Shown here one piece after another: positions 10,740-35,815 of a DNA stretch of 64,000 nt. Source of the DNA: Harmothoe impar (taxonomy: Eukaryota; Annelida; Polychaeta; Phyllodocida; Polynoidae); assembly GCA_947462335.1 (NCBI GenBank), contig OX381720.1, forward strand, positions 60,350,233 through 60,414,232. Direction: 5' to 3'. Each line of letters opens with the position of its first letter. Within the stretch, counting starts at the first letter, position 1. A program made the translations under genes and the position numbers. The notes beneath the pieces were generated by a model. That model was not told where the DNA came from and ran no database searches. It was given only the letters and a program-made list of their open reading frames with translations.

Positions 10740-13595
10740 ATGACTATGGTTGATTTTAAAGGGAAAAAGGGTATGCACTTTTGTCATATGAATGCACGTA
10801 GCCTTGTATCAAATAAAATTGCCGTTAGATTAATGTTGGAAAACTCTAATATTGATATATTGGGTATCTCAGAGAGCTGGCTAAATGAAAAAATGCCAGA
10901 CAGTCAGGTGGCAGTGAAGGGGTATAATATAGTTAGGTTGGATAGACAGGATTTAACTGAGAAGGAATGGGGTGGAGGAGTTCTTTTGTATATAGCTAAT
11001 GACATCACATACACCACTAAAGCTTTTACAGCTTATGATAGTAGTACGAAAGATCTTGAAATACACTGTGTAGCAGTCAGTAGGGGTAAGCAAAAGCCAA
11101 TATTACTCATAAATGTATATAGGCCAGATAAAAATATGAAAAATGCCTTGGACAAAATTTCAGATATATTCACAAATTTGGACAAAAATAAATATAGTGA
11201 AATTATAATGTATGGTGATTTTAATGTGAATTATAAGCCAGGAGTCATTAAAGCTAATGGGCTCAGAAGTTTATGTCAAACACTAGGGTTGACTCAACTC
11301 ATAATGGAGGATACTCATGTTAATCCTGATACTGATAATACTATGATTGATCTTATTTTTACAAATAGCAGACATATAGTATCATCAGGTGTACTTGCCC
11401 CAGCTATCACTGACCATCACCTCATATATGCCACTAGATCCTATGTCCAACGTCCTATTAAAAAGGCAGAATTCACAGGGAGAAGTTATAAGAATTATAT
11501 TGTGGAAAATTTTAAAATGGGTTTGAAAAATACAAATTGGGATACATTCTGGCAAGCTAATACCCCTGATAGGGCATGGGATATATTTGTGACTCAAATC
11601 ACATTCCTTATAAATCTCACCTGTCCTATAAAGACATTTAGCTTTAAGCAAGAAAAGCAGCCCTGGATTGATGCACAGCTCATGAGGCAAATACATGAAA
11701 AAAATGCTGCCATGGCTAAGTATAGGAGGACTAACAATGAAGATGATAAGAACATATCAGACTTCCTCAGAAATAGGTCCAAGGCTGCTTGCAGAATGGC
11801 TGAGAGGGAATACCATATGGATAAGCTAAATACAAATGTGGAAAACCCCAAAGAATATTGGGCACAAATTAATGACATTTTGAACCCTAGGGTAAATGAT
11901 CCACATTTTAATCTGGTACATAATGATACCCCTATCCCAGATGCTGACACAGCAAACTTCATTAATGAATTTTTTGCTACCATAGGTGACAAACTAGCTC
12001 AGAACATGAATGCACCATGGAACCCTCCACACCCAAGGGTTAATAAGCATTTTACAGTTAGAGATTGTTCCGAGGAAGAGATGGTTAAGCTAATAGGAAA
12101 TATTAATACAGGCAAAGCCTCAGGGGTTAAAGATATATCGTCTAAAATCCTTAAGGATGCCATGATGTGTCTCCCAGAGCATGTCAGATTTATTATTAAT
12201 TTAGCAATGAGAACTTTCTCTTTTCCTGATGATTGGAAAATTGCACAAGTTAGTCCCCTCCCTAAAGGGGGTGATGCATCCGAGGTATCCAATCTTAGAC
12301 CCATTAGTATCCTGCCCATTCCTGCCAAACTGGCTGAGAAGGTTATTCATAGACAAATGCTTGAACATGTGACAGAAAATAATATATTGACTGATAAACA
12401 GGACGGATTTAGGCCAAAAAGATCTACTATTGACAGCCTGACAAGACTGACTGAAGACATATTTGACTCCTTTAACAAGGACAAAGTTACCACTGCAATA
12501 TTTATAGATTTCAAAAAAGCATTTGATACTTTAGACCACAAAATTCTACTAAAAAAGTTGGATATGCAAGGTTTTGGAATAAACACTATAAAATTGATTA
12601 AAAGTTACTTAAGCAATAGAAAACAATGTACAAAAGCAAACAAAATAATTTCAGACCTACATCCTATTAACTGTGGAGTCCCACAAGGATCCGTGCTAGG
12701 GCCCTTATTATTTTTACTGTATATAAATGACTTGAGTTTATGTCTCACTGCCTTGAAGTGTCAGCACTATGCAGACGATACTGTTATTTATATAGAACAT
12801 AAGCCAAATTGTCAGCAAGTGGAAGCCACCCTTAATAATGACTTAAGAAATGTTTCCCAGTGGTGCTTAAGCAATAAATTATCCTTAAATACTAAAAAGA
12901 CAAAAGCTATGACATTTTACACACAGGCACTTCTCAACAGATTGGTCAGACCAAGGCTGGCTCTGGGGCAGGATCCTATCCTCTATACCCCAACTTATTG
13001 TTATCTAGGCATGACTCTGGATTCTCAGTTAGCTTTTAAGAAGCATGTGGATGTGGTGGGTAGGAACTTGGATTTCAGATTATATTTATTTAGAAGAATA
13101 AGGCTAAAAATGCCTAGCCATGCTGCTATAAGTGTGTTGAAACGGATGATTATGCCTGCTCTGGACTATGGAGACATACTTTACATGATATGCACTGATA
13201 CTCATTTGAGTAAGCTTCAAACTCAAATTAATGGTGGAGTGAAGACAGCCCTTAGAAATAAGGAAACTGTAAACACAGAAAAGTTAAGAAAAGTTATCAG
13301 GGTAAACACACTTAAGGAGAGAAGAAGTAAACATCTTGAAATGGCTAGTTTCAAAGCTGCTCAGAAAGAGGCAAATATAGATACAAGGGACATTAGAACA
13401 AGAATGCATGACGGTACTCTAATGACTGTAGTCATACCCAAAAATCCCATTAGTAGAAAGAAATTAAGCTATAGATTATCCATAGAGTGGAATAAACAGT
13501 TAGTAGAAACCAGGGAGATTGACAATGAGGTCAAATTCATCTCATGGTTAAATGGGAAATATGAAGATCTTATTGATCTACTCCCAGATATTTAG
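10740..13595 (+). CDS. Non-LTR retrotransposon endonuclease-reverse transcriptase
   Basis: This is a single uninterrupted 951-residue frame. The N-terminal third is an exonuclease-endonuclease-phosphatase (APE-type) endonuclease: HMNARSL near residue 17, ISESWL near 43, YGDFNVN near 159 and ITDHHLIY near 223 carry the expected Asn, Glu, Asp and Asp-His residues. The reverse transcriptase follows: NLRPISILP near 520, FIDFKKAFDTLDH (residues 588-600, first catalytic Asp), GVPQGSVLGPLLF near 646 and the catalytic YADDTVIY near 677. There is no RNase H domain. The layout fits the CR1/L2/Jockey group, where the endonuclease nicks the target and the reverse transcriptase primes on it. The first ATG lies only about 15 codons before the endonuclease, so the frame looks complete. 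I see no ORF1/gag upstream; it may be absent or lost by 5' truncation. The lack of stops suggests a young or recently active copy. Clade assignment is uncertain. Confidence 0.95.
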   Translation: MTMVDFKGKKGMHFCHMNARSLVSNKIAVRLMLENSNIDILGISESWLNEKMPDSQVAVKGYNIVRLDRQDLTEKEWGGGVLLYIANDITYTTKAFTAYDSSTKDLEIHCVAVSRGKQKPILLINVYRPDKNMKNALDKISDIFTNLDKNKYSEIIMYGDFNVNYKPGVIKANGLRSLCQTLGLTQLIMEDTHVNPDTDNTMIDLIFTNSRHIVSSGVLAPAITDHHLIYATRSYVQRPIKKAEFTGRSYKNYIVENFKMGLKNTNWDTFWQANTPDRAWDIFVTQITFLINLTCPIKTFSFKQEKQPWIDAQLMRQIHEKNAAMAKYRRTNNEDDKNISDFLRNRSKAACRMAEREYHMDKLNTNVENPKEYWAQINDILNPRVNDPHFNLVHNDTPIPDADTANFINEFFATIGDKLAQNMNAPWNPPHPRVNKHFTVRDCSEEEMVKLIGNINTGKASGVKDISSKILKDAMMCLPEHVRFIINLAMRTFSFPDDWKIAQVSPLPKGGDASEVSNLRPISILPIPAKLAEKVIHRQMLEHVTENNILTDKQDGFRPKRSTIDSLTRLTEDIFDSFNKDKVTTAIFIDFKKAFDTLDHKILLKKLDMQGFGINTIKLIKSYLSNRKQCTKANKIISDLHPINCGVPQGSVLGPLLFLLYINDLSLCLTALKCQHYADDTVIYIEHKPNCQQVEATLNNDLRNVSQWCLSNKLSLNTKKTKAMTFYTQALLNRLVRPRLALGQDPILYTPTYCYLGMTLDSQLAFKKHVDVVGRNLDFRLYLFRRIRLKMPSHAAISVLKRMIMPALDYGDILYMICTDTHLSKLQTQINGGVKTALRNKETVNTEKLRKVIRVNTLKERRSKHLEMASFKAAQKEANIDTRDIRTRMHDGTLMTVVIPKNPISRKKLSYRLSIEWNKQLVETREIDNEVKFISWLNGKYEDLIDLLPDI

Positions 13596-25048: not shown

Positions 25049-25121
25049 GCCCAGTTGGCTCAGTCGGTAGAGCATGGGACTTTTAATCCCAGGGTCGTGG
25101 GTTGGCGCCCCATATTGGGCG
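25049..25121 (+). tRNA. tRNA-Lys(UUU)-like sequence, probably a pseudogene or SINE head
   Basis: The 73 bases fold as a cloverleaf. The acceptor GCCCAGT pairs with ATTGGGC (one G-T), the D arm is GGCTCAGTCGGTAGAGC, and the anticodon stem TGGGA/TCCCA encloses CTTTTAA, giving anticodon UUU. The T stem GTGGG/CCCAT (one G-T) encloses TTGGCGC. The invariant T-loop TTCGA is lost, which also damages the internal B box. That argues for a pseudogene or tRNA-derived repeat rather than a working gene. There is no intron. Confidence 0.55.
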
Positions 25122-25179
25122 CATACACTTTTCTACTCATGCTCAAGGAATACCGATACCATATCATACTACGGGGGTG

Positions 25180-25550: not shown

Positions 25551-25556
25551 GGGATC
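25551..25556 (+). other. Left target-site duplication GGGATC
   Basis: Six bases, exactly repeated at 34910-34915 immediately beyond the other terminus. A 6-bp duplication is the integration signature of Polintons/Mavericks. Confidence 0.95.
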
Positions 25557-25619
25557 AGTAGTATAGTATGTATCGGAACGGGACTATAGTTAAGTACTGT
25601 TTATTACTCAATCGACCTG

Positions 25620-25990
25620 CAGCCAATCAGAGGCCTCCATTTGGTCACGTGACCGGAAGTGACCTACTTAGGGGATTAGTGGTGACGTCACGTGACCTAG
25701 TTAGCCAATCAGAGGCCGCCATTTGGTCACGTGACCGGAAGTGACGTCATATGACCTACTTATGGACCGGAAGTGACGTCATATGACCTACTTAGGGGAC
25801 CGGAAGTGACGTCATATGACCTAATTTAGGATCACGTGACCGGAAGTGACCTGATGAGTCACGTGACCGGAAGTGACGTCACATGACCTAATGGCCAACC
25901 GGAAGTGAGTGACCTCATTGAGGATCACGTGACCGGAAGTGACCTGATTGATCATGTGACCGGAAGAAGAAGTGACGTCACGCGACTTAA
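25620..25990 (+). promoter_or_regulatory. Array of host-type promoter motifs in the left TIR
   Basis: Tandem 30-40-bp units combine CACGTGAC (E-box, about 6), CCGGAAGTGA (ETS/GABP-type, about 8) and TGACGTCA (CRE/ATF, about 6). Two AGCCAATCAG CCAAT boxes (NF-Y type; about 25621 and 25703) and a GCCGCCATTTGG YY1-like site (about 25718) lie in the outer part. The array is repeated in inverse order in the right arm. These are core motifs of animal housekeeping promoters. The assignment is by consensus words only; promoter or enhancer activity is inferred. Confidence 0.6.
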
Positions 25991-26224
25991 TGAAGAGATG
26001 AGCGTCTTTAAGGGGTCACGCGCTTTAAAATGTGATATCTTTTTTTTTGGAGGAGGAGGAGGAGGAGGAGGAGGAGGAGGAGAAGGAGAGGAGGAGGAGG
26101 CGAGTCTCTTATTTTTTTCGGTAAACTAATAAAAAACACTACGATATAAGTTTGTTTTTTTTTCATTTTTTATTGTTTTACGAGCGACTGGAAGTGACTT
26201 ATTGAACTAGGTAGAAGCGTTCTT

Positions 26225-26395
26225 TAGAGTGAATAAGGGGGGGGGGAGGGGAGGGGAGGGGAGGGAAGGGGAGGGGGGCCCCTTTAAGATGCATGGGGAG
26301 GGGGGCGCTTTTAGGATGCATGGGGCGGGTGGGGGGGAGGGGGGGAGGGGGGAGGGGGGCACTCTAGGGGGGTGGGGGGGCACTCTAAGGGGCGT
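26225..26395. repeat. GGGGA-rich block, left TIR only
   Basis: Repeated GGGGAGGGGA, duplicated GATGCATGGGG words and several runs of 6-9 G, with G-quadruplex potential on the plus strand. Missing from the right arm. Confidence 0.8.
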
Positions 26396-26438
26396 TTGTC
26401 TCTTTTAAGAAAAAAAGAAAAGAAAAAGATTTCAATCG

Positions 26439-26480
26439 AGAGACACGCTTCTTCCTCTCGAGAGGAAGAAGCGTGTCTCT
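26439..26480. repeat. Perfect 42-bp palindrome
   Basis: AGAGACACGCTTCTTCCTCTC is followed at once by its exact complement, centred on TCGA (26458-26461) with no loop. It could extrude as a cruciform or hairpin. It is present only in the left arm. Confidence 0.95.
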
Positions 26481-26628
26481 TCATTTTTTTTTGTTTATCA
26501 CGTGCCTCGATGAGGCGATCAGCTGCGACTGGAGGAAGTGACACTTTAAGAGGGCGCGCGTCTTAATTGTTATGATATTTTTTTTTACTTACTAATAAAG
26601 AAGACGTATGAAAATAAAACACAACAAT

Positions 26629-27369
26629 TCACATGTCCGTCGTTCTCGTTGTTTCTTGCTTGATAAAGTCAAGTAATATCGCGATGCCCAGGTCAAACTT
26701 TCCCATGTCCTCAGTCAACACTCGAAGGAGTTCAAAAGGTGTACCGCCGGCACCGTCAGCTTCATCTTGCCACATTTTCAACACTCGGAAGGCCCACTCA
26801 GCGGGACTTCCTCCGTATTCGCATTCTTCAGCGATCTTATCTAACCTCTCAGGCGACAATTTTAAATGGTCCCCCACCTCTTTCCACCTGCTACCTAGAC
26901 GTCTGCCGAGGGTGCCCAAGTGCTTATGCATCGCGCGCGAGTCGGGGTTTTCGAAATCCAACCCCTGTCTGTGGAGAAGGGACATCCACTGAGCCAACAG
27001 TTCCACGCGTCTAATGCGGGTGAAGACGCGACCGAGCTCTCCCCATCTATGACGATGCGGGGTTTCACCCCACCAGACTCGGAACATCGCCGTACACAGC
27101 TCCTCCGGTGTCTTGACACTGCGCTCTACTAGAGCATCCATACGGGCGGCGGTAACTTTTAAGCTACTGCCCAACTCTCTCCAACAGCCGCTCAACTCTT
27201 TACCTAGTTGACGAAGCAAGGCGTCGCTATAGGCTAACCGCTGCTGTCCTACCTCTCTGTTCTCCCCATCGGTCTGCCTCGCGCGTCTCACGTCGTCAAG
27301 CCGCATTAACTTTTTTTCAGGTGGACAAGGCGGTGAAGGCGAGCTTGAAAGTGGAATAGCTTGAGCCAT
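26629..27369 (-). CDS. Tandem death-domain protein
   Basis: A 246-residue protein with a low-complexity Pro/Ser/Lys N terminus (1-50) and two death-fold modules. Module 1 (about 51-130) has LLRQLGKEL, CWRELGSSL, the acidic-hydrophobic MDALVERS, MFRVWWGE and a final RVELLAQW. Module 2 (about 146-236) has LGRRLGSRWKEVGDHL, LDKIAEE, AFRVLKMW and LLRVLTEDMGKFDL. The spacing of the core Trp, Leu-Gly and terminal helix residues is that of death domains, which act by homotypic assembly in apoptosis and NF-kB/inflammasome signalling. There is no protease, kinase, membrane segment or signal peptide, so it is adaptor- or decoy-like. The start ATG (27369) has G at -3 and +4, and a TATA box lies upstream. 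A role in blocking host death or immune signalling is inferred. No integrase- or capsid-like feature is seen in it. Confidence 0.85.
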   Translation of the reverse strand: MAQAIPLSSSPSPPCPPEKKLMRLDDVRRARQTDGENREVGQQRLAYSDALLRQLGKELSGCWRELGSSLKVTAARMDALVERSVKTPEELCTAMFRVWWGETPHRHRWGELGRVFTRIRRVELLAQWMSLLHRQGLDFENPDSRAMHKHLGTLGRRLGSRWKEVGDHLKLSPERLDKIAEECEYGGSPAEWAFRVLKMWQDEADGAGGTPFELLRVLTEDMGKFDLGIAILLDFIKQETTRTTDM

Positions 27370-27382
27370 CTCATCTCGTCTT

Positions 27383-27426
<44 letters not shown>

Positions 27427-27433
27427 TGGTAGT
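27383..27433. repeat. GGC/GGT trinucleotide repeat in the death-domain gene leader
   Basis: GGC repeats pass into GGT/AGT just upstream of the minus-strand ATG, so the transcribed leader would be (GCC)n-rich. Confidence 0.9.
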
Positions 27434-27485
27434 AGACGTTACTGTGGTCAGAGGCGATATGGTTTTTTTCCAACAGAAATCAGAG

Positions 27486-27493
27486 CTTTTATA
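27486..27493 (-). promoter_or_regulatory. TATA box for the death-domain gene
   Basis: Minus-strand TATAAAAG, about 117 bp upstream of the ATG at 27369, inside CTGTATAAAAGCTC. Position and orientation fit a polymerase II promoter of this gene. Confidence 0.55.
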
Positions 27494-27499
27494 CAGAGG

Positions 27500-27985
27500 G
27501 AGTTTAATCCCATTTCCAACAGCACTCCAGCTGTCTAGCGACCTGTCCGCATGACGCTTTTTCAGCCGCTCCGCTCCTTAAGAGCTTAGATGACGAGGGG
27601 TATGTCATCGCTATCCGTGGAGACCAGCTGAAAACGGTGTTTCTTCCTCATCCATAGCCTTACCTCCTACCCCCTACCTGAGGACGTCTCCCTCCCTCTG
27701 ACATTCATTGTAACAAACGTCAGAGGTCAGGTGAAAATCGGATTTTTTTCATGCACAGCCTTAGTCAGCTGTCACCCCTCCCTATTGAACTAGCCGGCCG
27801 CCGCCTGGCCGGCCCGGTCTACTCACCACGGCAGGAGGTGGTGATTTTTTTTTGTCTTACACTTAAGTCGCTCACCACATGCACACGCCTCTACTCACAG
27901 ACAGACACGTCCGTCTTAGGGGGGGTCCTGCTTCACGCCACACGCCTCCTGTAGTTTTTTTTGTATACACACTCTAAGCTCATCA
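27500..27985. other. Divergent intergenic region of the element
   Basis: It separates the minus-strand death-domain gene from the plus-strand PC4-like gene and probably holds both promoters. Diverged words recur (GAAAACGGTGTTT, CGTCAGAGGTCAGGTGAAAA; CTGACATTC…ACGTCAGAGG). Short frames here have no domains. Confidence 0.5.
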
Positions 27986-27988
27986 CCG

Positions 27989-28290
27989 TTAATCCTTTAT
28001 ACAGCTAACGCGCGCTGAATTGCTGAACAGGGTGGTAAGTAGCTTAGCTCATGACAGTGGATCCCTCAAAAAAAGAGGGGAAAGGGATCCAGCTGAAAAC
28101 GTCATACCTTATGTCTTTGTGAATGGCCGCCGGTCAGTCGACGGCAGCAACCGCTTAATCCTTTATACAGCTAATGCGCGTTGAATTGCTGAACAGGGTG
28201 GTAAGCGGCTTAGCTCATGACAGTCGATCTCTCAAAAGGGGGGAAAGGGATCCAGCTGAAAACGTCATGCCTTATGTCTTTTGTTTCTCT
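27989..28290 (+). repeat. 166-bp tandem duplication upstream of the PC4-like gene
   Basis: The segment beginning TTAATCCTTTATACAGCTAA at 27989 is repeated at 28155. Both copies carry TGCTGAACAGGGTGGTAAG, CTTAGCTCATGACAGT, GGATCCAGCTGAAAACGTCAT and CTTATGTCTTT. Each brings its own splice-donor-like site and TTTATAC word. Confidence 0.9.
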
Positions 28291-28306
28291 TTGCTGCTCT
28301 CTACAG
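28035..28306 (+). other. Predicted leader intron of the PC4-like gene
   Basis: Donor candidates are GTAAGT at 28035 (strong; 272-bp intron) and GTAAGC at 28201 in the duplicate (106-bp intron). The single acceptor is a textbook pyrimidine tract, TTTCTCTTTGCTGCTCTCTACAG, ending at 28306. It lies 8 bases before ATG 28315. The intron would be wholly in the 5' UTR. Confidence 0.6.
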
Positions 28307-28314
28307 TCACCACC

Positions 28315-28470
28315 ATGAGCAAAAGACAACACCTAGCGCCGTCCAAGAACAAGAAGACTACGCGGAACAGCACTCGTTTAGCGTCAGTGCCTCCTCTTGC
28401 TACTGAAAATGAGACTACCGCCGCAGCCGCTTGGTCTTATCACCCTCCCGCTGTAGCGAGCGCTCGCAGC

Positions 28471-28504
<34 letters not shown>

Positions 28505-29916
28505 CTAGTAGTAGTAGTAGTAGTGGTAGTAGTACTACTGGTAGTAGTCGTCGTGCTAGCGACGTTGTTACACTCGCGACGGTACACGTTGCTGCTAAGC
28601 GTGCTGCCGCTGCTACTGCCGCTCCGCCTGCTGCTGCTGCTGCTGCTGGTGATCCTCGGGCTGCGGCTGCTGCTGCTGCTGCTGCTGCACCTGCTACTGC
28701 TGCGCCTGCTACGGCTGCGCCTGCTGAGGCTGCTGCGCCTGCTACTGTTGCGTCTGCTGCTGCTGCTGCTGCTGCTGCTTCTGCTGCACCTGCTGCTACC
28801 GCTACTACTACTGACGACAACGCTCCTGGCACAGCGCAGTACTGGCAACCGGGTTTTTACCTCCCCACTACTGTTGATGACTTTGATGACCTGCCGCACG
28901 TTGCACAGCCCCTCTCCTCCACAACTACATCGACCGACGCCCTCGACGCCGCTCGCGCTGAGAGTGACAGCTATTCGGACACTCAGCCCCTAAACCGAGA
29001 AGAAGAGGAGGAGGAGGAGCAGCAGCAACAGGGTGAGACAGAGAACGACGCTGACGACGAGGCGTACGAAGAACCCGAAGGGAAAGGGGTGGGCGGTACG
29101 TTTTTCGGCTCCCCTCTTCGACCTTTCGACCTCACTTCCACTAGTAGCGCCCCGTCCGGTCCGTGGCGACTGCCCTCACCGCCACCTTACGAGGGCGGAG
29201 GCGCTTCATCTTCTACCGCTACACTCAGCACCGACGGCGTGTGGCTGCTCTGTTCCAACAACGAGGCCTCGGATACCACCAGCGCTGACGCTGCTCCTGC
29301 TATCGGTTCTGCTGCTGATTCAGCTCACGCTGATGGTGTTACTCTTCCTGCGGGTGTGAAACGTTCTAAGGTGAGTTCCAGAACAACAAGGCCTACTAAG
29401 AAGAGAAAAATACAAGAAAAAGAACGAGATGGACGAGAAGAAGCAGAGAAACCCTTCTCCCGTCTTCTCGGGTTAGAATTCTGCTTAGACGGAGCTTTGA
29501 CGCTGGAGATCTGGGAGGACGTGGCTAGACTGTCTAGGAGGCCGCGCTACACAAAAGACGGCCAGGTGAAAGAGGCGTCTCTGACCAGAAGCAAGCGAGT
29601 GCACTTCACGGCCGACGCGCTGCGCGAGCTAATAGCACGCATCGCCGATATCCGCGCAGTGGTGGGCATACGCGACACAGCGGCCGCGCAAGGAAGACCT
29701 AATCACACCCCCTGGTTCGCAGTGCTGGATGAGGAGGGCGAAGTGTACGCAGCTGTGAGCTACTACAGCGGTAAGAACCTCGTCCACGTGCGCAAGTACG
29801 AAGGTCCTGACAAAAAACCCACACAGCAGGGGGTGACGCTGTCCGCCAGAGCGCTCAAAGAGTTGGATGACAAAACAGAGATTATTCTCAAATATCTCGG
29901 TATAGATTCGGAATGA
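28315..29916 (+). CDS. PC4-like nuclear ssDNA-binding protein with Ser/Ala-rich N terminus
   Basis: 533 residues from ATG 28315, chosen over the upstream ATG at 28174 because it follows a strong splice acceptor and sits in CACCATGA. Layout: basic start; poly-Ser tract (about 46-80; AGT repeats); long Ala/Pro/Thr tract (about 95-170; GCT repeats); acidic Glu/Gln segment (about 228-260); basic nuclear-localisation-type TKKRKIQEKER (about 360-370). The C terminus holds two related modules. Module 1 (about 382-450) has GLEFCLDGALTLEIWED and RVHFTADALRELIARI. Module 2 (about 465-530) has FAVLDEEGEVYAAVSYYSG, LVHVRKYEG, GVTLSARALKELDD and a last helix. The beta-hairpin-plus-helix pattern matches the p15/PC4 transcription-coactivator fold, which binds ssDNA as a dimer; two copies in one chain would form the dimer internally. 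A replication or transcription role beside the polymerase is inferred. Confidence 0.75.
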
Positions 29917-29931
29917 GAGACGCTCAACGCT

Positions 29932-30085
29932 CACGCGCGCACACACACAGCGTTTGACGTACGCTGTATGAGACAGACAGACGGATACACAGACAGCAGA
30001 CAGATAGATAGATAGATAGATAGACAATAGATTGATAGATAGATAGATAGATAGACAGATAGATTGATAGATAGATAGATAGTTA
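29932..30085 (+). repeat. CA/CAGA and GATA microsatellites between the plus-strand genes
   Basis: CACACACACA, ACAGACAGACGG and (GATA)n fill most of the 204 bases between the PC4-like stop and the polymerase ATG. There is no obvious TATA box or poly(A) signal here, so the two genes may share a transcript. Confidence 0.9.
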
Positions 30086-30120
30086 GACGGCTAAGTAGTT
30101 GGTAACTGAGTGAAAAAAAC

Positions 30121-32952
30121 ATGACACAGTACGTATGCGAAAAGTGTTTCAAAATTTTTAAAAGACCGTACAACCACGAGAGACACGTAGAAAGTTGTAG
30201 AGTAATACCTAAGTTTTGCCCTCTATGCGGCGAAGGCGATTGCCGAAAGATCGCCTGTCGACGCGAATCTCTGGACGGGGTGACCATCCCTCCGCGCATA
30301 TGTGCTGTACCAAACGGGGAGGAAACGTTCACGGCGAATTGGCCTGCGATACAAACGGGCGTCAGGATGCACGGGACTCGCGTGAGTGTAACAAACTTCA
30401 GGCTACCAACCGGCGAGTTGAGTGACGCTGTAGATACTATGCGTCGCATTCACTTGACACAAAGATTCAGATACAAAGTGGGTTTCTCGGTAGGCTTACT
30501 CTTACAACACAGAGAAGACAAGAGCAAACTGCGCTACTTTCACGCCTCCCAGAACAACGCAACTCTCATACAACCGCTCCCTACTATAACTAATTCAGAA
30601 ACTTTGGAAGAGCTCCTCTCAAAGATGGAAAACACCGTCGCTTGCGAGGAAGTACGGAAACTTTGCGACGCTGACACCAAGTGGCACGTTCTTTTTCCTA
30701 CCAATTTGAACATTTGCGTTTACATGGGACCGGGGGAATTCCCCATAGGCGGTAGGATCACTCAGGCCGGTCGAGTTGGAAAGAGAAGCGGCGTGTTAGA
30801 TTTTCCCAACAAGGACAACCTCTGCATCTTCCGCTGCATTTCCTTTCACTTATACAACACCAGCAAGCGCGCTTCAGATTTGTTACGTCAGTTCTGTCCC
30901 GCTGCCACACCTGAATCCTTTCCGGGTCTGAACATCCGCGACTTACCCGCGTTAGAGAACTTGTTTGACGTACAAATAGCGGTCTACACCGCGTCGCGTC
31001 AAGTGCCGGGGCGGAAGTTGAGAAGACGCGTTACTCTGATCAGACCGCCTTCCAGAACTCTGGCCGCCCGAGGTAAAGTCAACCTACACCTGACGGCGAA
31101 AGGCGGTTTGCACGTCTCTCTCGTCACGGACTTCAACGCGTACGCGGGCATATACAAATGTTGCAAGTGTAAGGCGGCGTTCACCACCGAGTTCTTGCTG
31201 AAGAGACACAGGAACCAGCTTTCCTCTTGCCGACAAGTCAAGTTGCCCTACGTAGGTGGCATCTACCAAAATTCGAGAACGATTTTGGAAGCGCTAGCAG
31301 ACTTCTCCATTTTTCCCCCCGACGGACATTCCGGAATCTACCCTTACAAGATCGCCTTCGATTTCGAGGCTTTCTTCAGACCGTGCAAAGAACCGTCGAC
31401 GGAACACGTGTCCCTGCTGTGGGATCACGTCCCTTTGTCGGCTAGCGTCGCATCCGACTTTCCGGGGTGGGAGGGGCCCGTCTGCTTCGTCAGAGAATCC
31501 GACGCAGATTCCGACCCCTTGTTGGACCGAGTTTTAAATCACATAAACGAGAACGCCAAAGTCATCGGGGAAGCTGTGCTAGAACTTTACCGACCGACCT
31601 TAGCGAAGTTAGATGCGGCGATAGGTGAAGCTCTCCTGCTGGAGGAGGCGACGTTCACCCCTTCTCCAGGCGGCTTCGCTGCGGCTCAGACCAGACACCC
31701 GTTAGTTCAACTGAAGAAGCGTCTTCTGAGATACATCCGGCAAGCTCCAGTCATGGGCTTCAACTCGGGGCGTTACGACTTGAACCTGATCAAAATACGC
31801 CTTCACTCGTTCTTTGCCTCCGGAGACCGAAGAAACCAAGAATTCAGCGTCATAAAGAGAAGCAATCAATACTTGGCGGTTTACACACAGCACACGGTTT
31901 TCTTGGACGTAGTCAACTATTTGGCACCCGGTTACAAATACGCGACCTATTTGCGAGCTTTCACCAGGAACGAAGAGAAAGGTCACTTTCCTTACGAATG
32001 GATGACGTCTACCAGGAAACTGGCAAACAGAACGCTGCCACCGAGATCGGCTTTTGACAGCGAACTGACGGGCGTCAAAATGTCCGAATCCGACTACGCC
32101 GCATGTCAGAAAGTTTGGTCCGACGAGAAGATGCAAACTATGGAAGATTACTTGATCCACTACAACAACAAAGACGTCAAACCTTTCATAGAAGCTCTGA
32201 AAAATCACGCTAAATTTTTCCAAGATCGCGGCATTGACATGTTGAAAGACGGAGTTTCTCTCGCCGGTTTGACTTTACGGTTCCTCTTCCAAAACCTAGA
32301 AGACGCGTTCACAACATTCCCCCAGTTCGACGCCGTCCTCCACGCTCTGATCAAAGAAAATCTAGTCGGCGGTCCTTCCATCATCTTCCATAGATTTCAC
32401 GAGAAGGGCACCACGCGGATAAGGGAGCACAAGTACGGCGAAGAAGCGAGACCGTGCCAACACATCCTAGGACTAGACGCTAACTCTCTGTACTTGCGCT
32501 GCATGAGCGAAGCGCACTGCACGGGCTATTACGCGGTGAGACGGCCCGAGACCGAGTTCAAGCCCGAAATTAGGCAAAGAAACTCTCACAGCGCTTTGGA
32601 GTGGTTACGCTTCGTAGAGCACGACCGCGATGTGAAACTGCGCCACGCTTTGAACGGCGGCGAGATGGTTGTAGGCTGTCGGAGAATTCGCGTGGACGGG
32701 TTTCACGCGGCCTCTAATACGGTTTTCCAGTTTCACGGGTGTTGGTTCCACGCTCACGAGTGCATACCGTCGCACCGATATCAGTGCGCTTCACTGAGGG
32801 AGGAGAGACGCGACAGAACGACTAGAGTAAGCGCGTACTTGAAAGCGCTAGGTTACAAGCTGTTCGTCGTGTGGGAGTGCGAATGGAGAGAGATGAAGCG
32901 TCGAGATGAGCGAGTTAAGGCCTCCCAACAAGCTGGAAGGTTGACGCTTTGA
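30121..32952 (+). CDS. polB: Protein-primed family B DNA polymerase, N-terminal part (exonuclease and motif A)
   Basis: 943 residues. An N-terminal C2HC-type finger (Cys6, Cys9, His22, Cys26) is followed by a Cys cluster (CPLCGEGDC) and a DNLCIFRCI segment (about 231) resembling the OTU-like Cys motif in front of Polinton polymerases. A second finger lies near 345-370 (CCKCKAAF…LKRHRNQL). The proofreading exonuclease follows: Exo I FDFEAF (about 412), Exo II GFNSGRYDLN (about 546) and Exo III YNNKD (about 681). Polymerase motif A is LDANSLYLRCM (about 785; its usual Pro is Leu), and the Polinton-typical WECEW is at about 918. The frame stops at TGA 32950 while the homologous sequence continues one base back in another frame. 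Role: protein-primed copying of the linear element DNA. The ATG follows the GATA repeat and is the first in frame. Confidence 0.92.
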   Translation: MTQYVCEKCFKIFKRPYNHERHVESCRVIPKFCPLCGEGDCRKIACRRESLDGVTIPPRICAVPNGEETFTANWPAIQTGVRMHGTRVSVTNFRLPTGELSDAVDTMRRIHLTQRFRYKVGFSVGLLLQHREDKSKLRYFHASQNNATLIQPLPTITNSETLEELLSKMENTVACEEVRKLCDADTKWHVLFPTNLNICVYMGPGEFPIGGRITQAGRVGKRSGVLDFPNKDNLCIFRCISFHLYNTSKRASDLLRQFCPAATPESFPGLNIRDLPALENLFDVQIAVYTASRQVPGRKLRRRVTLIRPPSRTLAARGKVNLHLTAKGGLHVSLVTDFNAYAGIYKCCKCKAAFTTEFLLKRHRNQLSSCRQVKLPYVGGIYQNSRTILEALADFSIFPPDGHSGIYPYKIAFDFEAFFRPCKEPSTEHVSLLWDHVPLSASVASDFPGWEGPVCFVRESDADSDPLLDRVLNHINENAKVIGEAVLELYRPTLAKLDAAIGEALLLEEATFTPSPGGFAAAQTRHPLVQLKKRLLRYIRQAPVMGFNSGRYDLNLIKIRLHSFFASGDRRNQEFSVIKRSNQYLAVYTQHTVFLDVVNYLAPGYKYATYLRAFTRNEEKGHFPYEWMTSTRKLANRTLPPRSAFDSELTGVKMSESDYAACQKVWSDEKMQTMEDYLIHYNNKDVKPFIEALKNHAKFFQDRGIDMLKDGVSLAGLTLRFLFQNLEDAFTTFPQFDAVLHALIKENLVGGPSIIFHRFHEKGTTRIREHKYGEEARPCQHILGLDANSLYLRCMSEAHCTGYYAVRRPETEFKPEIRQRNSHSALEWLRFVEHDRDVKLRHALNGGEMVVGCRRIRVDGFHAASNTVFQFHGCWFHAHECIPSHRYQCASLREERRDRTTRVSAYLKALGYKLFVVWECEWREMKRRDERVKASQQAGRLTL

Positions 32953-34244
32953 AAGTGTCTCGAAACGCGATGAGCGAGAGCGACATCCTTTCCGCTGTGA
33001 AAGACGGGAAAATGTTCGGTTTAGTTCAAGTGGACATCACTACGCCGCCTCACCTACGAGACTACTTCGAAGAAATGACCCCCGTTTTCAAGAACGTGAC
33101 CGTTTCAAAATCGGACATAGGACCTCACATGTCAGACTTTGCGCAGGAAGAAAAGCTGTTGAACACGCCTCAGAGATGTCTGATAGGGAGTTACCACGGA
33201 AAAAATATTCTCTTGGGAACGCCGCTTCTCAAGTGGTATTTAGAGCACGGTTTGATAGTCACCAAAGTGCAGCTGGTGGTAGAATACCTACCTAAACGCT
33301 CCTTTGCCGGTTTCGCGGACGAAGTAACGGCGGCGCGAAGACGTGGCGACGTGAACGAGAACGAGAAAATTCTGTCAGACTGTTACAAGTTAATGGGAAA
33401 CGCTACGTACGGTAAAACGATCTGCAACAAAGAAAAACACACGGCGGTGAGATACACTGACAGTCGGAAGTTCGAACTATTGGCCAATTCGTGGCGCTTC
33501 AAAAAGGCGTCCGAGTTGAGTTCCGATCTGTTTGAAGTCGAACTACAACCGAAAACAGTCAACAACAACCTCCCTATTCAAATAGGGTTCATGGTATACC
33601 AGTACGCGAAGTTGAAAATGTTAGAGTTCACATACGACTTCTTGGATAGATTCGTCGATCGGCGCGATTATGCCCTTTGTCAAATGGACACCGACAGTCT
33701 TTACATGGCTCTCAGCGGTGACACGTTGGATGACCTAGTCAAACCTCGCCTGAGAGAGACGTACTTCAGAGAGAAACGAAAGTGGCTTCCGACAGCGGTG
33801 TGCGACGATCACTTAGAGCTTTTCGTGAAGACAAAAACGGAAAGAGTGCGAGAATGGTGTCCGCCGCCCGGCGGATGTTGTGAGAGACGGTACCTTCACG
33901 ATCTGAGAACTTCGGGGCTCATGAAAGCGGAGTGGGAAGGTGACGGGATCCTAAGTCTCAACCCTAAGACTTACATTTGCTACGATCGAGTCAGCGACAC
34001 CGGTGAAAGAAAATCCAAAAAATGGAGTGCAAAAGGCGTACAGAAGAAACAAAACCCTCAGGAACCAGACGACTTCTTGGATGTTCTTCGCCAACGAAAA
34101 ACTCTCATTGCTGTAAATAGAAATTTCAAAGTGGTGCGAAACAAAATGGTCACCTACACCATAGAGAAAGACGGCGTGCGCTACTTGTATTATAAGCGTC
34201 GCGTGCATTCTGACGGTGTGACAACGAGTCCTTTAGAGATATGA
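32949..34244 (+). CDS. polB: Protein-primed family B DNA polymerase, C-terminal part (motifs B and C)
   Basis: 431 residues continuing the polymerase in the -1 frame. The frame is open from 32919 and has no ATG until 32970, so it is a continuation and not an independent gene. It carries motif B LMGNATYGKT (about 149-158), catalytic motif C MDTDSLYMAL (about 246) and the lysine-rich thumb motif AKGVQKKQN (about 361). The summed length (about 1,370 residues) is normal for a Polinton polymerase. No GT-AG intron of workable size and no recognisable -1 slippery heptamer is seen at the junction. A recent single-base indel (mutation or assembly error) is the simplest reading. AATAAA-type signals follow at 34324-34345. 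Confidence 0.92.
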   Translation: MKVSRNAMSESDILSAVKDGKMFGLVQVDITTPPHLRDYFEEMTPVFKNVTVSKSDIGPHMSDFAQEEKLLNTPQRCLIGSYHGKNILLGTPLLKWYLEHGLIVTKVQLVVEYLPKRSFAGFADEVTAARRRGDVNENEKILSDCYKLMGNATYGKTICNKEKHTAVRYTDSRKFELLANSWRFKKASELSSDLFEVELQPKTVNNNLPIQIGFMVYQYAKLKMLEFTYDFLDRFVDRRDYALCQMDTDSLYMALSGDTLDDLVKPRLRETYFREKRKWLPTAVCDDHLELFVKTKTERVREWCPPPGGCCERRYLHDLRTSGLMKAEWEGDGILSLNPKTYICYDRVSDTGERKSKKWSAKGVQKKQNPQEPDDFLDVLRQRKTLIAVNRNFKVVRNKMVTYTIEKDGVRYLYYKRRVHSDGVTTSPLEI

Positions 34245-34323
34245 AAAAAAAAAATAAGCGTGTTATTGCTTGATTGAGTGCATCTTTTCAAAAATAGAGT
34301 GTTTATCAAGATTGAAAAAAAAG

Positions 34324-34345
34324 AAATAAAAAAAATAAAATAAAT
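34324..34345 (+). terminator. Poly(A) signal cluster after the polymerase
   Basis: Overlapping AAATAAA words lie 80-100 bases after the polymerase stop and just before the inner edge of the right TIR. Confidence 0.5.
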
Positions 34346-34346
34346 T

Positions 34347-34465
34347 ATTGTTGTGTTTTATTTTCATACGTCTTCTTTTACTAGTAAGTCGTGCAGTCTC
34401 TTAAAGCGTTGACGATGTCGCTTCCAGTCACGTGATCCTAAAGACCCTCACTTCCTAAACAAAAA

Positions 34466-34496
<31 letters not shown>

Positions 34497-34909
34497 CTTC
34501 TTCCGATCACGTGGTCAATCAGGTCACTTCCGGTCACGTGACCCTCAATGAGGTCACTCACTTCCGGTTGGCCATTAGGTCATGTGACGTCACTTCCGGT
34601 CACGTGACTCATCAGGTCACTTCCGGTCATGTGATCCTAAATTAGGTCATATGACGTCACTTCCGGTCCCCTAAGTAGGTCATATGACGTCACTTCCGGT
34701 CCATAAGTAGGTCATATGACGTCACTTCCGGTCACGTGACCAAATGGCGGCCTCTGATTGGCTAACTAGGTCACGTGACGTCACCACTAATCCCCTAAGT
34801 AGGTCACTTCCGGTCACGTGACCAAATGGAGACCTCTGATTGGCTGCAGGTCGATTGAGTAATAAACAGTAGTTAACTATAGTCCCGTTCCGATACATAC
34901 TATACTACT
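34347..34909 (-). repeat. Right terminal inverted repeat
   Basis: 563 bp, the reverse complement of the left arm, with only a few substitutions in the outer 430 bp (for example TTAACTACTG versus TTAAGTACTG). It has a CTT microsatellite (34467-34503) where the left arm has GAA/GGA repeats, and it lacks the G-rich block and palindrome. It carries the inverse array of E-box, ETS, CRE and CCAAT words. Confidence 0.93.
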
Positions 34910-34915
34910 GGGATC
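34910..34915 (+). other. Right target-site duplication GGGATC
   Basis: Exact copy of 25551-25556, directly after the terminal CATACTATACTACT. Confidence 0.95.
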
Positions 34916-35315: not shown

Positions 35316-35815
35316 AGGAAGGGGGGGGTGCAGGGGCATAATCTGGTAAAGGAGTGGGGGGGGGGCAGAATCTGGTGGGGGGGGGGGCAGAATCTGGTAG
35401 AACGGGTGGGGGGGGGCAGAATCTGGTAGAGGGATGGGGGGCAGCATCTGGTGGGGGGGGGGGGTCGGGAGGGCAGAATCTGGTAGAGGGATGGGGGGGG
35501 GGGTGAGGGGCATAATCTGGTAGAGGGGTCGACAGGGCATAATCTGGTAGAGGGGTGGGGGGTGGGGAGGGCAGAATCTGGTAGAGGGGGGGGCAGAATC
35601 TGGTTGAGGGGTGGAGGGGCAGAATCTGGTAGAGGGGTGGGAGGGGGCAGAATCTGGTAGAGGGGTGGGGGGATCTTGTAGGGGGAGGGGGTCTGGTAGG
35701 TGTGTGTGTGGGGGGGGGGGGGGGCCTGGTAGGTGTGTGTGTGGGGGGGGGGGGTCTGGTAGGGGGAGAAGGGGTCTGGGAGGTAGGTGTGTGTATGTGT
35801 GGGGGGGGGGGTGTA
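35316..35815. repeat. G-rich minisatellite (GGCAGAATCTGGTAGAGGGG)
   Basis: About 15 units of 25-40 bp with variable G-runs, changing to GTGTGTGTGGGGGGG units after 35690. Long Pro/Ser/His (minus) and Gly (plus) frames are translations of the array. Confidence 0.95.

Follow-up and report, generated by a model that had tools for sequence, protein, structure and literature searches.

A multi-copy family of short Maverick-type elements carrying polymerase and death-domain genes in the genome of Harmothoe impar

Background

It has been argued that Mavericks (Polintons) occupy a position between viruses and transposons. An element that has Maverick-type ends and a Maverick-type DNA polymerase (PolB) without detectable genes for integration or virion formation raises the question of whether it is the remnant of something larger or a lineage in its own right. 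We address this question for a 9,353-bp element in the polychaete annelid Harmothoe impar, which lies in a 64,000-nucleotide stretch of contig OX381720.1 (C20:60350233-60414232; hereafter the window, to which positions given without a locus name refer) of a chromosome-scale assembly of 1,511,831,793 bp in 736 contigs. We consider it probable that the element is a decayed copy belonging to a multi-copy satellite family derived from Mavericks, one that has its own replicase and receives its integrase in trans.

Results

A short element with standard ends

The element occupies positions 25557-34909 and is flanked by a perfect 6-bp target site duplication (TSD), GGGATC, at 25551-25556 and 34910-34915. 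Its terminal inverted repeats (TIRs), each of 416 bp, lie at 25557-25972 on the forward strand and 34494-34909 on the reverse strand and are 98.3% identical across their alignment; the left one starts with AGTAGT and the right one ends with ACTACT, so that the element begins with AGTAGTATAG, ends with CTATACTACT and shows the motif (AGT)2/(ACT)2. The initial annotation had proposed a complete 9.35-kb element with this duplication, long TIRs and AG...CT ends, and all of these are recovered here, the AG and CT being contained in the longer motif. In the consulted portion of a survey of vertebrate Mavericks (PMC8097293), intact elements measure 12,723-24,620 bp, with a mean TIR of 402 bp and 6-bp TSDs, and the commonest end motif is (AGT)2//(ACT)2. 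Set against these adintovirus-type elements, the window element agrees in its TSD, end motif, TIR length and PolB family, and differs in its 9.35 kb, in the lack of any detected integrase, ATPase, protease or capsid gene, and in a PolB that points outward to the TIR. By its sequence, then, its ends are standard for Mavericks and its length is not.

Gene content

The interior is accounted for by three genes, which encode a double death-domain protein, a serine/alanine-rich PC4-like protein and a Maverick-type PolB. On either side of a central divergent region, the death-domain gene points toward the left TIR and PolB toward the right one; the longest stretch outside these genes and the PC4-like gene measures about 0.8 kb. 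The element has 108 open frames that reach 40 amino acids (aa) or more; the four main open reading frames (ORFs), together with 14 others, were run against Pfam. The 14 further frames gave no Pfam family, and beyond their own domains the four main ORFs gave only weak, sub-threshold matches.

Integrase, ATPase, protease and capsid genes were detected in the element neither by Pfam on the ORFs nor by tblastn, in agreement with the initial annotation, which had described a three-gene interior without them. It had also proposed a comparison with full-size relatives; we made this with 10 proteins of two full-size elements that share the genome, and tblastn matched none of them in the window element or in 20 related loci, while in the control five of the 10 matched from one full-size family to the other at 32-43% identity and the other five matched only themselves. 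For the retroviral-like integrase there was no rve match in Pfam and no tblastn match with two co-resident integrase sequences, and for the packaging ATPase there was no match in the element by either method. The cysteine protease and the major and minor capsid proteins had no Pfam match, and the unnamed ORFs of the full-size element no tblastn match, which is a weaker test than those for integrase and ATPase. The adintovirus combination of a hexon and an integrase with a chromodomain was likewise not found in the element by Pfam or tblastn.

Copies of the same layout in the host genome

The TIRs were searched for in the host (40 of 130 candidates scored, 46 matches), and this is an undercount because very common words were skipped. 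Twenty low-end TIR sites other than that of the window were fetched, the copies thus being chosen by TIR similarity. Seventeen of the 20 loci carry all three genes, ordered and oriented relative to one another as in the window, including one with a partial PC4 match and one with much of PolB deleted; the remaining three are L010, where an end is interrupted by a nested element, and L011 and L022, which belong to a second type. All 14 copies measured end to end have AG...CT ends, as the window copy does, and a perfect 6-bp TSD, every one different. They are 9,449, 8,832, 9,407, 9,390, 8,966, 9,454, 9,359, 9,299, 9,530, 9,206, 9,452, 7,176, 9,430 and 9,486 bp long, so that all except the copies of 8,966, 8,832 and 7,176 bp (11 of 14) fall within 9,206-9,530 bp. 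The count of copies proposed in the initial annotation therefore returns the same layout of about 9.3 kb many times over, and its suggestion of a capsid-less, integrase-less lineage is supported. Its other suggestion, an exchange of morphogenesis genes for host-interaction genes, would imply a direction of change.

When the death-domain protein was searched against the host, the best 150 of 3,962 first-look candidates were scored; every one of these 150 is full length (246/246 residues), free of stops and, after rounding, 100% identical. The death-domain gene is thus present in the host genome in 150 or more near-identical copies. At ten such loci, one of them that of the window, the element begins with AGTAGTATAG in all ten cases, each time after a different flank. 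In the consulted portion of the vertebrate survey (PMC8097293) the number of Mavericks per genome is mostly low, with a mean of 22 and a median of 8; the maximum is 287 for loci and 38 for intact elements. Against these figures the at least 150 full-length death-domain genes can be set.

As a separate observation, 10 of the 17 copies (L009, L016, L019-L021, L023, L024 and L026-L028) have one TIR that is 95-99% identical to the window TIR and another that is 85-91% identical, which places two TIR types within single elements.

State of the genes and selection

Of 18 copies (the 17 and that of the window), 13 have the death-domain gene, and 13 the PC4 domain, open over its full length. A PolB frame open from end to end occurs in 2, and in both of these all three genes are open. 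The ratio of nonsynonymous to synonymous divergence (dN/dS) was estimated pairwise by the Nei-Gojobori method; the 13 close copies give 78 non-independent pairs, decayed copies included. Among the close copies dN/dS is 0.27 for the death-domain gene, 0.27 for the PC4 domain, 0.33 for PolB ORF1 and 0.50 for PolB ORF2. Between the close copies and a diverged group of four (three for PC4) the corresponding values are 0.43, 0.50, 0.29 and 0.28. Inside the diverged group itself the ratio rises to 0.63-0.86. This pattern fits selection in an active lineage followed by later decay. The close copies show a synonymous divergence of 0.018-0.036 from one another, which we read, with no clock applied, as a recent burst. 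That the lineage replicates, as the initial annotation had it, would follow from the PolB frames open in 2 of 18 copies, the dN/dS values below 1 and the low divergence between copies.

The polymerase and its relatives

In the window copy PolB is divided between ORF1 (30121-32952, forward strand, 943 aa), with weak C2H2-like finger matches, a DNA_pol_B_2 stretch and a Vsr-like endonuclease domain, and ORF2 (32949-34244, forward strand, 431 aa), which holds the rest of the polymerase in a different frame. The frame is lost somewhere in 32919-32950, presumably between polymerase motifs A and B, which we assigned by eye. The initial annotation was right about a PolB, and needs correction in that the gene is not intact. 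Its assignment as protein-primed would rest on the PolB family and the TIRs. A programmed frameshift or an intron at the break is not favoured, since relatives are continuous across it and the break region of the window differs in length from that of 15 of 15 comparable copies (of the 17); a break common to the window and two other copies was considered and dropped after the copies were compared.

Scoring of 7,995 candidates gave 397 PolB homologs. Among the best 120, the closest are P0001 (about 98%; 1375 aa, continuous, 31 member sequences), P0002 (76%) and P0003 (63%), with the next at 48%. In a quick tree of 45 rows P0001-P0003 form a supported clade, which adjoins four PolBs from contigs of 9.6, 12.7, 16.6 and 17.6 kb, and both homologs and tree place the gene in the Maverick type even though it is broken in the window. 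The Vsr-like domain (phrog_13076 1.7e-5; Vsr structures 2.8e-6, by profile) lies in a region also kept in aligned PolB relatives, two of them on contigs of 16-18 kb. An OTU-like N-terminal domain, an adintovirus trait, had no Pfam match in PolB, the resemblance being by eye only. Some PolB relatives lie on contigs of near-equal length, 9.3-10.1 kb, which we note as a lead only.

The death-domain and PC4-like genes

The death-domain gene (26629-27369, reverse strand) encodes 246 aa with two death domains (Pfam Death 2.6e-7). With a profile built from four homologs, the first domain matches FADD best (0.0023), and the second matches GPX62 (0.0027) and RIPK1 (0.033). The central divergent region (27370-28173) probably holds promoters. 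An 83-bp repeat has one copy there, and the other (28155-28237) overlaps the beginning of the PC4-like ORF. This ORF (28174-29916, forward strand) encodes 580 aa, with a low-complexity N part rich in serine and alanine and a PC4-like C-terminal domain, and its true start is probably near 28315. Three homologs of the death-domain protein were found, at 99, 78-79 and 55%, and one of the PC4 region, at 76%. Because the identity ladders of the PolB, death-domain and PC4 homologs match, they suggest that the three genes travel together.

Full-size Mavericks in the same genome

A Pox_A32-type ATPase profile gave five matches above the cut-off (124 candidates, all scored). Three of them have a frame of 234 aa and are about 99.6% alike over 3.4 kb; in the other two the frame is 267 aa long. 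One full-size locus carries the ATPase (4.1e-8), an rve integrase (3.8e-11), a PolB (3e-21) and several unnamed ORFs, together with a chromodomain match (0.001) below the cut-off. Full-size Maverick-type elements are thus co-resident at low copy number, and are candidate integrase donors. The full-size Maverick-type elements are those at loci L039-L045.

Discussion

A satellite with its own replicase

The short element looks like a virus relative turned genomic parasite. In the scheme that we propose, PolB would copy the linear element from its TIR ends, as its family suggests, and the PC4-like protein, to judge from a weak domain match, may coat single strands during strand-displacement synthesis. 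The double death-domain protein may bind host death-domain adaptors and so damp the innate or cell-death response that extrachromosomal linear DNA would provoke. The copies would then be inserted, with 6-bp TSDs, by integrase acting in trans from co-resident full-size Mavericks, which we infer because the family has Maverick-type ends and 6-bp TSDs and shares its genome with integrase-bearing elements. The family would thus have kept replication and dropped integration and capsid, as a satellite of Mavericks. Like non-autonomous DNA transposons it likely depends on an integrase in trans, and it differs from them in having a DNA polymerase gene of its own, apparently constrained in the close group.

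Several results weigh against this reading. The PC4 match (Pfam 1.4e-4) scores 21.8 bits against a cut-off of 25, and the structure models have a predicted local distance difference test score (pLDDT) of 43 for the death-domain protein and 45.6 for the PC4 part, too weak for use in fold searches; the latter model ends in four strands followed by a helix, the arrangement found in PC4. The intactness of the genes is biased upward, since the scored death-domain matches were the best ones and the copies were chosen by their TIRs, and the genome-wide count covers the death-domain gene. PolB is closed in most copies and the family may be near extinction; the four diverged copies, compared with one another, give dN/dS values of 0.63-0.86, indicating little or no constraint there. 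On the side of the helper, the termini of the full-size element on C20 were sought and not found. The PolB of the full-size element matches that of the short family at about 30% over a single 121-residue stretch, and the full-size element is therefore not a near parent of the family.

Alternative explanations

The length of the element, 9.35 kb as against 12.7-24.6 kb for the intact vertebrate Mavericks described in the consulted portion of the survey (PMC8097293), could be explained by an isolated internal deletion in an ordinary Polinton of 15-20 kb. This explanation is very improbable and we reject it: 17 of 20 loci have the same layout, the 14 measured copies each have their own TSD, and neither the window element nor any of the 20 loci shows a trace of the ten proteins of full-size elements. 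PolB also points outward beside the TIR, unlike the modules of vertebrate Mavericks, which in the same portion of that source usually point to the centre, those of the cane toad pointing away. The rejection does not extend to an old deletion at the family's origin. A finished burst is harder to dismiss, in which the family would be dead, its frames open through youth and its genes without present function; the two open PolB frames among 18 copies and the high dN/dS of the diverged group agree with it. Past selection is nevertheless indicated by dN/dS values of 0.27-0.50 for all genes among the close copies and by diverged lineages, which conserve the genes at 55-79%, and we regard a dead family as unlikely.

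The two other explanations concern how the copies move. A self-sufficient transposon, in which PolB with its Vsr-like endonuclease, or a host recombinase, carries out insertion and no outside integrase is needed, is favoured by the Vsr-like domain and by at least 150 death-domain gene copies beside five ATPase matches; however, relatives that include the two on 16-18-kb contigs share the Vsr-like region, which is thus not specific to the family, and the Maverick-style ends and exact 6-bp TSDs point to the usual integrase, making this explanation improbable. We doubt still more that the family is a satellite virus that borrows a capsid as well and spreads in the virions of full-size Mavericks. 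Such elements do co-reside in the genome, and PolB relatives at about 98, 76 and 63% occur in other records, but nothing in the analysis points to packaging and movement within the genome would by itself account for the copy number in one genome. The preferred explanation remains a Maverick-derived satellite family with its own replicase and an integrase in trans.

Relation to known systems

Krupovic et al. 2014 reported nine elements without major capsid protein, protease and ATPase together among 72 Polintons (PMC4028283), and capsid-less Polintons are therefore not new in themselves, as the consulted section already documents. The short family resembles those nine in the loss of the morphogenesis set and differs from them in the additional absence of integrase (the status of which in the nine is unstated in that section), in a conserved multi-copy layout and in the death-domain gene. 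A three-gene, integrase-less, death-domain-bearing Maverick family was not met with in literature titles and abstract openings, mostly outside subscription journals, and no locus with related DNA was found in viral contigs or prokaryote genomes. Transpovirons, linear plasmids and Bidnaviridae are related replicons without the Maverick capsid set; their gene sets are different and they are not known to integrate with 6-bp Maverick-type ends.

We tentatively propose that the family may represent a new class of eukaryotic satellite, a replicase-bearing "half-virus" with a protein-primed polymerase, a single-strand-binding protein, a death-domain effector and a stolen Maverick integrase, present in hundreds, perhaps thousands, of copies and itself a source of derivatives (a death-domain fusion and a giant palindrome). 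A lineage without virion genes or integrase that appears to have multiplied recently, with signs of purifying selection on all three genes, would make the transition from virus to transposon directly testable. The short family also offers a natural small replication module for study, and a case of a transposon with parts of death-domain signalling.

Derivatives, terminal motifs and neighbouring sequences

The nested element in L010 (686-9440) has (AGT)2 ends and its own TSD, GATATA, and is a giant palindrome: its arms, each of about 4.3 kb, are 99.3% alike and flank 133 nucleotides (nt). Snap-back copying of a linear replicon could have left such a structure behind. L011 (101-9889; 9,789 bp, TSD GTTGTT) and L022 make up the second element type, with a near-identical left TIR (98 and 96%). 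A death domain (1.6e-11 and 1.7e-12) there replaces PC4 after the serine/alanine-rich N part, and PolB is interrupted at the same place by a module bearing ORF334. This ORF (P0125; L010:2935-3936), common to the derivatives, had no Pfam match and a single, unconvincing match in the PDB (E 0.49), and it may be a captured host gene.

The left TIR with its adjoining bases to 26040 contains 8 CCGGAAGT, 6 CACGTG, 6 TGACGTCA and 2 AGCCAATCAG sites, and when the right TIR region (from 34440) is included, either region has 8, 6, 5-6 and 2 of these. Outside the TIR regions CCGGAAGT occurs just twice in the window, and AGCCAATCAG occurs nowhere else in it. We take these sites to be motifs bound by common host factors. 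Since the genes end, and do not begin, at the TIRs, our guess is that the clusters might act at replication origins, by analogy with adenovirus ends. On the inner side of the TIRs, a 32-nt subterminal match at 26597-26628, adjoining the stop of the death-domain gene, has its inverted partner at 34347-34378.

Immediately to the left of the element is a tRNA-Lys(TTT) gene or pseudogene (25049-25122), and to its right a G-rich minisatellite (35333-35500). Elsewhere in the window, a 951-aa open frame at 10740-13595 has endonuclease and reverse-transcriptase domains (RVT_1 1.7e-36) and is LINE-like.

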